A stretch of 53,577 bases of DNA, taken from the NCBI GenBank assembly GCA_029857955.1, contig JAOUFY010000011.1:1-53577 (forward strand), given 5' to 3'. Position 1 is the first letter of the stretch. Each line of letters begins with the position of its first letter. Positions 48,406 through 51,164 of this stretch are shown here, piece by piece. The stretch comes from Spirochaetia bacterium. Lineage in GTDB: Bacteria > Spirochaetota > Leptospiria > Turneriellales > JAOUFE01. Position numbers and translations under genes: made by a program. The notes beneath the pieces are model-generated. The model ran no database searches and was not told where the DNA came from. It saw nothing but the letters and a program-made list of their open reading frames with translations.

Positions 48406-50379
48406 TTAAATAACCCTTTCGTTTCCGCCGTCTACAGGAACATTGGAGCCGGTGGTTTTTGCAAAAGCGGGGCCGCACATTTCAACGGCCAGTCTGGCAA
48501 CGTCATGACTGGTGACTTCAGTTGAAAGAACGTTATTTTTTTTGTACTCATCAACCGTTAAACCGTAGCTTTTCGCGCGCGATTGAAGTACCTCATCTGT
48601 CCAGATTCCCGTGTCAAACACCGCATTCGGGTGAATGCTGTTGATGCGAATACCGTCTTTTCCCCATTCAAGGGCGGCAACTCTGGCAAGTTGATTTAAA
48701 GCCGCTTTTGAAGCGCTGTAGGCAGATGCTCCAGGTCCGGGGGCTGCCACATTTTTTGAACCAATGATCACAACACGGCCATATTTAGGAGAATTTTTTA
48801 AAAGAGGGTGGGCAAGTTTTAACAATTCAACGTTGGCCGTTAAATTGATTTGCATGACCTTGTTCCACGTAGAAATGTCCATTGCGGCAATCGGCATTGA
48901 CTTTGGAAAAATACCCGCGTTCAATACAATTGCATCGAGACCGCCAAATTTTAACACAGCCTGATTTAAAACTTTTTCAATACTGGCTTCGTCGGTGATG
49001 TCGCAGACAATACCAAGATATTCTTCTTTTTTATAGATCGTGGTAATGTCAGGGTTAATATCGATACCAACTACGCAGGCGCCATTTTTTAAAAAAGCAT
49101 CAACGCAGGACTTGCCAATTCCAGAAGCAGCGCCAGTGACCAGAACGATTTCGCCCTGCATAACCGGAGCCGAACCTGATTTTTTTAGTTTAGCCTGTTC
49201 GAGATCCCAGTATTCCATTTCAAATAAATCAAATTCATCGAGAGCTCTGTAGCCGCCCAGGATTTCAGCGCGGTAAATGATGTCGATAGTATGATCATAA
49301 ATTTCAGAAACAATCATGGCATCTTTAATGGATTTGCCGGTGCTGATGATTCCAAGCTTTTTGTCGATAACCAGTTTAGGGGCAGCATCAAGCATGGTTT
49401 TTTTATCGCGAGCTTTCGGCGCATTCCGCTCAAAGTATTTTTTATAGTCGTCAACATAGGCTGCGACATCATGACCAATGGCGGGTAATCGCTTTGTTCT
49501 TATAATATGATCCGGCGTTGCAGGACCCTGTTGGGATATCTTTGAAATGTTTTTATCATTTGCAAAATGAAGCGATTTGTTATTGGTGTCAGAAAACAAA
49601 ATCATCGGTGAACCGGCAGCCTTTGAAATGTTTTTTCGCAAAACCGAAATCTCTTCACGATTAAATTCTACCGGTTTTTTAGAGGCAGCATAAGAAAGAT
49701 TCAAGGCCTTCCTGCTTTCAAGAAATTTATCAGCCATGTCGATGAGCTGAATTTGACGTTCATAAGATTCTTTCGCCGTATCGCCAAAAGAAAACATACC
49801 GTGCTTTAAAAGAGCCATGCCGATGATGTCTTTGTTCATACTTTTTTTAAATTCAACCGCGCAGTAACGAGCCAGATCAAAACCAGGCATAAGGTAGGGA
49901 ATCACAATGACCTTTTTGCCGTATATTTCGCGAATGAACTTTTCGCCATCAGGGGTATTGGTGATCGAAACCAGGGCGTCGGCATGAGTATGATCGACAT
50001 ACTTAAAAGGAATGATCGCGTGAAGAATGGTTTCAACAGAGGGAGCAGGCGAACCATAGTTGGTCATGGCTGTTTTTAATTCATTAACCATTTGCGGATC
50101 AGATAATTTTTCAAGATTAGATAATTCAATCGATTTATCCAGACGAACAGGGCTAAATCCCGCTTCTTCGATGGTTTCCAGATCCCAACCGCTGCCTTTA
50201 ACGTATAAAATATCTTCTTCTTTACCGAGAATATTTTTAACTTTTATTTTAACCGAGGTATTGCCGCCGCCATGAAGAACCAGCGACTTGTCGCGCCCTA
50301 AAAGACGAGATGTATAAACCCGCAAGGCCAGATCAGACTTGTATTCAGAGGCTTCTTTATCATTCCATAAACTTTTCAT
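48406..50379 (-). CDS. Bifunctional class II aldolase / short-chain dehydrogenase (RhaD-YuxG type)
   Basis: A 657-residue two-domain protein. The N-terminal half is a zinc class II aldolase (HGGGNTSVK near 36, VDHTHADALVSI with metal His, and LKHGMFSFGD). The C-terminal half is an SDR dehydrogenase with VTGAASGIGKS near 416, LNAGIFPKS, and the catalytic Tyr-Lys in YSASKAAL near 552. In related enzymes the pair cleaves rhamnulose-1-phosphate and reduces the lactaldehyde product. The surrounding genes are not rhamnose genes, so substrate is uncertain. Confidence 0.88.
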   Translation of the reverse strand: MKSLWNDKEASEYKSDLALRVYTSRLLGRDKSLVLHGGGNTSVKIKVKNILGKEEDILYVKGSGWDLETIEEAGFSPVRLDKSIELSNLEKLSDPQMVNELKTAMTNYGSPAPSVETILHAIIPFKYVDHTHADALVSITNTPDGEKFIREIYGKKVIVIPYLMPGFDLARYCAVEFKKSMNKDIIGMALLKHGMFSFGDTAKESYERQIQLIDMADKFLESRKALNLSYAASKKPVEFNREEISVLRKNISKAAGSPMILFSDTNNKSLHFANDKNISKISQQGPATPDHIIRTKRLPAIGHDVAAYVDDYKKYFERNAPKARDKKTMLDAAPKLVIDKKLGIISTGKSIKDAMIVSEIYDHTIDIIYRAEILGGYRALDEFDLFEMEYWDLEQAKLKKSGSAPVMQGEIVLVTGAASGIGKSCVDAFLKNGACVVGIDINPDITTIYKKEEYLGIVCDITDEASIEKVLNQAVLKFGGLDAIVLNAGIFPKSMPIAAMDISTWNKVMQINLTANVELLKLAHPLLKNSPKYGRVVIIGSKNVAAPGPGASAYSASKAALNQLARVAALEWGKDGIRINSIHPNAVFDTGIWTDEVLQSRAKSYGLTVDEYKKNNVLSTEVTSHDVARLAVEMCGPAFAKTTGSNVPVDGGNERVI

Positions 50380-50457
50380 AGAATCTGATTCTTTCTTTAT
50401 CTCATGTGGTAAAGTTTTTTATTGGTTATTTTATCAGTATAATGATGCGATAAAAAT

Positions 50458-50536
50458 GGGCGTTGCCTTACGGCCGGGCTTTTCACTGCAAGTCCCCATG
50501 CTTTGCATGCGGGCTTTCCGTTTCAATCCCTAACGC
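50458..50536 (+). repeat. Structured multi-hairpin repeat-like element upstream of tmk
   Basis: This GC-rich 79-base block stands out from its AT-rich surroundings. It starts GGGCGTTGCC and ends CAATCCCTAACGC, so GCGTT can pair with AACGC to close it. CCC-CATGC (50494-50501) and GCATG-C-GGG (50505-50513) form an internal hairpin. I have an impression of similar GGGCGTT ... CCCTAACGC elements in other genomes, but that is memory, not a search. Confidence 0.5.
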
Positions 50537-50558
50537 AAAGAATCTGATGATGGTTTAC

Positions 50559-51164
50559 ATGAAACATAAATTTATAGTAATTGAAGGTATTGACGGCGCG
50601 GGAAAAAGCACGTTAACCGGTAAACTTTCCGGATTATATAAAAACTCCTGTGAGGTATTTGCCGAACCAACGCGCATTAGTCCGTTTTCCCGCGCGATAC
50701 GAGACATATTGAACGGAAAAAATAAAGAAGATGCAAGAGAGCTGCTGATGCTGTTTAAAAAAGACCGCATATGGAACATAAAAAACAACATTCAGCCATC
50801 AATAAATAAAAACAAATTAACAGTATTGGACAGGTATTATTTTTCAACGGCCGCCTATCAGGGGCAAAATCAGCAGCAAGTAAGAGACATCATCAATGAA
50901 TATCTTGATGATGAAGAAATTTTACAACCCGACTATGTTTTTTATTTAAAACTTACGGCAGAAGAAGCGCTTAAACGAATCAGCCAAAGAGGAGAGGCAA
51001 AGGCAATTTTTGAAAATAAGCCAAGGCTCGTTTCCATTATGCAAAATTACGATTATATATTTTCAAACATGGAGTTTGACTTTCCGTGTTTTATACTCGA
51101 TGCGCGTTATCCGTCAGAAGACATTGCTGATTTTATCGTTTCTACAGTTTTTCCAGAACAATGA
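50559..51164 (+). CDS. tmk: Thymidylate kinase
   Basis: A 201-residue kinase that phosphorylates dTMP to dTDP. The P-loop is FIVIEGIDGAGKSTLTGKL near the N-terminus; the DR(Y/F)-type motif is VLDRYYFSTAAYQG; LID-region Args follow in RISQRGEAK. The frame extends to 50463, but those extra residues are the translated structured element, so I start at the ATG 50559; ATG 50547 or 50550 is also possible. No good ribosome site is seen. Its tail overlaps trmB by 23 bases. Confidence 0.9.
   Translation: MKHKFIVIEGIDGAGKSTLTGKLSGLYKNSCEVFAEPTRISPFSRAIRDILNGKNKEDARELLMLFKKDRIWNIKNNIQPSINKNKLTVLDRYYFSTAAYQGQNQQQVRDIINEYLDDEEILQPDYVFYLKLTAEEALKRISQRGEAKAIFENKPRLVSIMQNYDYIFSNMEFDFPCFILDARYPSEDIADFIVSTVFPEQ

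Follow-up and report, generated by a model that had tools for sequence, protein, structure and literature searches.

REP and BIME repeats are dispersed, mostly intergenic, imperfect palindromes that are tied to RAYT (Y1) transposases. Flavo-1 is an RNA family (RF01705; Weinberg et al. 2010, PMC2864571) typed in Rfam as 'Gene; sRNA'; in the part of PMC9723704 that concerns F. psychrophilum, its matches are reported in sense, in antisense and outside the paper's TRs. The passages on Flavo-1 considered from PMC2864571, PMC9723704 and PMC9029176 give it no function, nor do they describe the outer helix or the GGACTT-type subtype set out below. The element described here shares with Flavo-1, as the family appears in Rfam and in those passages, a match to all 76 model positions, the order of the helices and the purine-rich loops; it differs in its inner arm, which is of a GCC/GGACTT type where that of Rfam is AUCC/GAUU, and in an outer GCGTT/AACGC helix and a 3′ side hairpin that the Rfam model leaves unpaired. 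The sequences of both outer helix and side hairpin are also contained in a Lutibacter copy that lies over the Rfam cut-off (L221:1606-1709). With REP/BIME the element has in common that it is dispersed, mostly intergenic, imperfectly palindromic, indifferent to orientation and multi-copy in some genomes; however, it is longer (80-150 nt) and has multiple helices, and no linkage to a Y1 transposase was found: of 12 genomes searched, 11 have the gene, and among their 26 PF01797 loci there is one weak element match (22.9 bits, E 0.0016).

The window analysed is a 53,577-nucleotide stretch from a spirochaete of Turneriella's order, as its NCBI lineage states; an order-mate of its genome (G007) has a contig of 25,287 bp that over the first 20 kb shows 100% identity to the Turneriella parva plasmid NC_018021.1. 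An earlier note on this DNA had singled out a 79-base block at 50458-50536, closed by GCGTT and AACGC; both arms can be read directly in the sequence (GCGTT at 50460-50464, AACGC at 50532-50536) and form the ends of the block. Between them CCCCATGC-TTT-GCATGCGGG at 50494-50513 makes up the internal CCC-CATGC/GCATG-GGG hairpin that the note had described, and this hairpin is present in the folds. The composition is as unlike that of the flanks as had been claimed, at 58.2% G+C over 50458-50536 against a window-wide 35.4%; a content this high is reached by 0.27% of the window's 79-base stretches. The sense strand of the block is minus, not that of tmk, and its extent is corrected from 50458-50536 to about 50456-50541.

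The block is one minus-strand copy of a Flavo-1-family element (Table 1). The RF01705 model matches 50468-50541 on the minus strand with 33.7 bits (E-value 1.5e-5 when 401 bases were searched, 2.6e-5 across the whole genome), and the alignment spans positions 1-76 of 76 with consensus pairing and four non-standard marks, indicating homology to the whole model. The score is below the Rfam gathering score of 42 bits, so the copy falls outside the family as Rfam's threshold delimits it, and a scan of the entire window at the gathering threshold gave no matches. Two further models include the outer helix and the side hairpin: R1, which adds them, was built from 33 compact copies (alignment A1), the window copy among them, and its score of 82.4 bits for that copy is high by construction; R2 was built from 32 Bacteroidota copies with the window copy left out, and matches it at 50456-50538 on the minus strand with 80.8 bits. 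R2 has no match elsewhere in the window at E<=1. A CRISPR repeat, suggested by GATTGAAAC at the core, was rejected as a chance resemblance (CRISPR-DR18 16.5 bits, E 2.9, gathering 50; single copy), and snoRNA matches in the Rfam scan of the block were likewise dismissed as chance.

Table 1. Coordinates of the element, its parts and the neighbouring genes in the window.
Feature	Position	Strand	Basis or remark
Flavo-1-family structured element, GGACTT-type subtype, whole	50456..50541	-	RF01705 match and model R2
Outer closing helix, 5′ strand (minus GCGTT)	50532..50536	-	both-side changes in 4/5 pairs, 83 copies
Outer closing helix, 3′ strand (minus AACGC)	50460..50464	-	outside the RF01705 match
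Side hairpin GCC-GUAA-GGC, 3′-proximal	50465..50474	-	minus-strand fold; unpaired in RF01705
24-nt core TTAGGGATTGAAACGGAAAGCCCG	50510..50533	-	core pattern: 73 Bacteroidota stretches, 1/392 Spirochaetota genomes
Second half GGACTTGCAGTGAAAAGCCCG	50475..50495	-	pairs with core via short helices, two 3x3 purine-rich loops between
Inner arm hairpin CCC G CAUGC AAA GCAUG GGG	50494..50513	-	folds
Bifunctional aldolase/short-chain dehydrogenase (PRK08324.2-4)	48406..50379	-	NF006196 1048 bits, cut-off 831
tmk (dTMP kinase)	50559..51164	+	TIGR00041 130.2 bits, cut-off 83.25; Pfam Thymidylate_kin; alternative ATG 50547

The fold begins with an outer 5-bp helix, followed by a GGG/CCC helix with the side hairpin; further inward, short helices with two symmetric 3x3 purine-rich loops between them lead to a freely varying inner arm. 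This arm is the variable region of the family and differs freely from copy to copy. Relatives of the window copy keep the helices by compensatory changes. R1 gives 82 matches in 73 Bacteroidota loci plus the window copy (33 of these built R1), and in alignment A2 of 83 copies 95.6% of cells are paired, with both-side changes in 18 of 21 pairs; the 67 both-side cells compare with a shuffled mean of 11.7, and none of 500 shuffles reaches any of the five measures, A2 (like A3) being fitted to the model's structure and the shuffles ignoring the relatedness of the copies. In several copies the outer helix is swapped as a unit, GCGTT/AACGC being replaced by GCATT/AATGC, GGCTT/AAGCC, GGGTT/AACCC or CCGTT/AACGG, and a few copies break it; the side hairpin has both-side changes in all four of its pairs and 80.3% of its A2 cells paired. 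Columns 18 and 166 of A2 hold A-U in the window copy and G-C in 69 of the 83 copies. In the short middle helix, a core A faces U in all six copies with the second half (L005, L016, L020, L030, L074 and the window), and a core C faces G in three of three (L004, L011, L064); L071 has the core A too, without a second half. The pattern used for the scan sets no constraint at that base, so this covariation is not built in. Compensatory change among copies, which the earlier note had proposed as the check on its hairpins, is thus found both in A2 and among 15 Lutibacter-group orthologues; as for the single-copy block without conserved folding that the note had named as its refutation, the copy is single in its own genome, but the folding is conserved.

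The 15 orthologues share one intergenic site, with a DUF4407 gene on one side and a PhnA/YjdM gene on the other. For their retrieval 6.5 kb of a Lutibacter genome (G063), containing the element, was compared with 38 genomes of its genus group, giving 19 further loci (L223-L241), and the regions were located through the genes on either side. Both flanks are anchored in 13 loci, and the element is present in all 13 as well as in G063; it is also present in L236, joined by the right flank, and absent from L240, matched on the PhnA side only, while L226, L228, L232 and L233 do not span the site. The element is therefore present in 15 of the 16 regions at the PhnA site. Among the copies examined there, L234 is over the Rfam cut-off (51.2 bits), and L221:4379, L223:5938, L231, L235, L238 and L241 are below it and of the GGACTT type, which establishes positional homology of the subtype with accepted Flavo-1 members; because the orthologous position carries either, the GGACTT-type and Rfam-accepted forms are one family. 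The 15 orthologous copies have 93.3% of cells paired (shuffle maximum 88.5) and 22 both-side cells, where 1000 shuffles that ignore relatedness reach 12 at most; further pair types number 16, a count that shuffles also reach. The fold at the PhnA site looks to be under selection, and a site kept in 15 genomes with compensatory changes offers a defined place for a functional test by deletion. At a second Lutibacter site (L221:1606) the element is found in L223, weakly in L226 and not in L225, with no clean junction. Stretches of ~130-150 bp that include the flanks of the element recur elsewhere in the Lutibacter group at 91-93% identity (L221:4347-4499, G063:C225:13525-13656, G428:C33:30279-30430), hinting at recent copying or gene conversion.

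The reach of the subtype was assessed with an exact pattern of the 24-nt core, which matched 73 stretches across a collection that covers 84,980 species; from their genus placements, we take all 73 to be Bacteroidota. Beyond the core they mostly share GCGTTAGGG, the inner arm and GAGGACTTGnAGCGAAAAGCCCG, together with the side hairpin and AACGCC; since these loci were chosen by the exact core, little core variation is visible and identity to Bacteroidota is inflated. Each of 18 loci taken from the 73 holds a GGACTT-type element and has no Flavo-1 match at the Rfam gathering score, and nine RF01705 matches in eight loci of the same subtype (E up to 1) score 25.8-37.1 bits where 42 are needed. 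In Limnovirga soli R1 gives at least 68 copies and RF01705 at least 55 at E<=0.01, none of them over the cut-off; copies per genome reach at least 90 in R1 searches, and relatives of Flavo-1 are dispersed repeats of tens of copies in some genomes and few or none in others. One Lutibacter genome has both forms, L221:1606-1709 being over the cut-off (59.5 bits) and L221:4379 and 13524 not. The exact 24-mer has no occurrence in viral contigs. The extended structure with outer helix and side hairpin, and a subtype below the Rfam cut-off, would provide a better search model, as a genome like that of Limnovirga soli has tens of copies overlooked at that cut-off. We tentatively put forward, with considerable doubt, that the GGACTT type is a large part of Flavo-1 missed by the cut-off, selected at promoter-side sites in Bacteroidota, dispersing, and crossing phyla as a naked unit of ~80 bp. 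Short forms also occur (L014, L017, L032, L050, L052, L055, L059, L067), which have neither inner arm nor second half, the 5′ half running directly into a side hairpin and a closing AACGCC-like end; AGCGGAAAGCCCG is common to both halves, so deletion between direct repeats could yield them.

The gene context of 74 Bacteroidota copies is varied: tandem genes flank 33 of them (15 in sense, 18 in antisense), divergent genes 15 and convergent genes 8; a further 11 lie inside a frame called by a mechanical ORF caller and 7 at a contig edge. The copies are thus indifferent to gene orientation, which speaks against their being terminators of upstream genes or leaders tied to a single gene family. On the simplest reading the element may be REP-like, a dispersed intergenic hairpin whose fold would be the active part, either in RNA on read-through or in DNA as a cruciform or a single strand; a protein could land on it, or it could set a local boundary of transcription or mRNA. 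In the window its effect would fall on the divergent aldolase/tmk intergenic region, unless the copy is a passenger there. Such REP-type working, rather than that of a one-gene riboswitch or a dedicated sRNA, is considered to have about an even chance. With a pattern that we take to be that of the Bacteroidota-type promoter, sites were found beside the 74 copies on 9 of 148 sides, compared to 83 of 5256 control windows (1.6%); as the control includes coding sequence, the difference is given no weight here.

Several other explanations bear on the locus. The note's remark that the block reads partly in frame with tmk is correct in that a frame open from TTG 50463 to 51164 passes through it into tmk, and this open frame, along with weak fold energies, is what favors chance GC-rich hairpins or the coding sequence of an extended tmk. 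Fold energy is unremarkable on the plus strand (z -1.30; 21 of 200 shuffles equally good) and of modest strength on the minus (z -2.15, equalled by 3 of 200); the minus-strand minimum-energy fold of 50456-50538, whose helices are those of the comparative structure, has -28.1 kcal/mol, reached by 0.26% of 83-base stretches (sampled every 40 bases, both strands) and by 7.5% of the 80 sampled stretches with at least 50% G+C. Homology (RF01705, R2) and covariation nevertheless make either form of this explanation extremely improbable, and the extension has no family match: in the extended frame Thymidylate_kin covers residues 40-223 from its first profile position onward, and all four families found (Pfam, E<=0.001) leave residues 1-37 uncovered. 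The ATG at 50559 is residue 33 of that frame, and the TIGR00041 match places profile position 3 at residue 2 from this start; the query for tmk relatives also began at 50559 and hence covers tmk without the upstream extension. The block is not conserved tmk protein, and the conservation of the upstream frame that the note would have counted against its reading is without support in the family scan. A cis-acting leader, of the aldolase gene in sense or of tmk in antisense, is unlikely: the element does lie on the aldolase strand with the start codon 76 nt past its 3′ end, is antisense to tmk and just upstream of it, and stands upstream of the PhnA gene in 15 Lutibacter-group genomes, so that some copies are position-fixed; however, the 74 Bacteroidota copies have no gene preference, and a search at E<=1 gave no element in the tmk loci of L109 and L110, from the closest two order-mates, in the aldolase fragment of the congener (L185, without the 5′ side of the gene) or in six Bacteroidota aldolase loci.

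A trans-acting gene for a putative small RNA would agree with the Rfam type, with a structure maintained by compensatory change and with Weinberg et al., who in the portion considered list Flavo-1 as probably RNA and not cis-regulatory (PMC2864571); against this, at least 90 copies in a genome are unusual for an sRNA, many F. psychrophilum matches fall outside the TRs in the part of PMC9723704 noted above, and the one promoter-like and zero terminator-like sites near the window copy (sigma-70 type) are not above shuffles. We regard such a gene as improbable here. A non-autonomous mobile element or its remnant, either a MITE or a REP moved by a transposase, is possible but doubtful, and this holds for the remnant of a mobile unit that the note had suggested; copy numbers that range between genomes from tens of dispersed copies to few or none, the presence in a spirochaete of a copy like those of Bacteroidota, and the recurring Lutibacter-group stretches with flanks (in G063 and G428) are consistent with mobility, but only one of the 26 Y1-transposase loci has an element nearby, and that a weak one, no clean empty site with a target duplication was found, and the PhnA site is kept across 15 genomes. 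Taken as a whole, the block is with good confidence best explained as a Flavo-1-family copy with a covarying fold, of a Bacteroidota subtype, that probably arrived laterally and may work in a REP-like manner.

In its own genome (G000) the element has one copy only by DNA search, RF01705 and R1; three further RF01705 matches there (E 0.41, 4.4 and 4.6) are attributed to chance, as 10 of 14 control genomes match similarly. The multiplicity of REP/RAYT repeats is therefore lacking in this genome and seen in others, and the earlier suggestion of a structured RNA or REP-type repeat was right in kind, the block being a relative of Flavo-1 that is dispersed elsewhere, but single-copy in this genome. 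Both neighbouring genes look native: tmk is closest to those of order-mates (47-49% identity), and the aldolase is 76% identical to that of the congener (G001). No tmk relatives were found in viral contigs. In G001, the only congener, the aldolase leaves the contig 4 bases past the match, and a search at E<=1e-10 gave no tmk. Among 385 Spirochaetota genomes the aldolase gene was found in two (E<=1e-80), both belonging to this genus, and it is perhaps itself an acquired gene. As for a possible joint transfer of gene and element, at the same threshold the gene occurs in 126 of 395 Bacteroidota genomes, the best four at 46-49% identity and 606-650 bits, under the 831-bit cut-off, and six aldolase loci of those genomes have no element.

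Flavo-1 in the wider sense is present in these spirochaetes as well, as RF01705 matches at E<=0.01 in 9 of 61 genomes including G000, is over the cut-off in 3 of the 61, and has at least 64 matches (87 in a later search) in a spirochaete of the same class, G019. The window copy is nonetheless unlike the other spirochaete copies examined and of a subtype found in many Bacteroidota. The exact core is present in 1 of 392 Spirochaetota genomes, that of the window; within two mismatches it is present in five, compared to one (G263) for a reversed control pattern, and some of the four 2-mismatch matches may be chance. One of these (L188, in G362) has no R1 match at E<=0.01 in its genome and 24.8 bits with R2. 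R2 gives the window copy 80.8 bits and Bacteroidota copies outside the model 80.5 (L005), 77.7 (L030) and 77.2 (L020), while the 28 spirochaete loci examined score 24.8-64.3 bits, all below the window copy. Across 48 conserved bases the window is identical to a Segetibacter copy (L030, 48/48) and has one difference from L016 and L074; the nearest other spirochaete copies compared (G336, G047) differ at 8. The 21-base second half, which is outside the scan pattern, is identical in the window, L016, L030 and L074. Arrival in this spirochaete lineage from a Bacteroidota donor is thus likely, though not proven; alternatively, the copy may descend from an old spirochaete copy, since spirochaetes carry other Flavo-1 copies. 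A lone Bacteroidota-like copy in a spirochaete also provides a clean background for testing.

The copies of G019 vary in form. Seven of them (L079, L096, L103, L144, L149, L153, L155) have neither outer helix nor side hairpin, and in them GCACG or GCCCG leads into a run of T, a form resembling that of intrinsic terminators; a palindromic repeat like TAAGGACTTAATTTATTAAGTCCTTA adjoins copies L102, L103 and L107.
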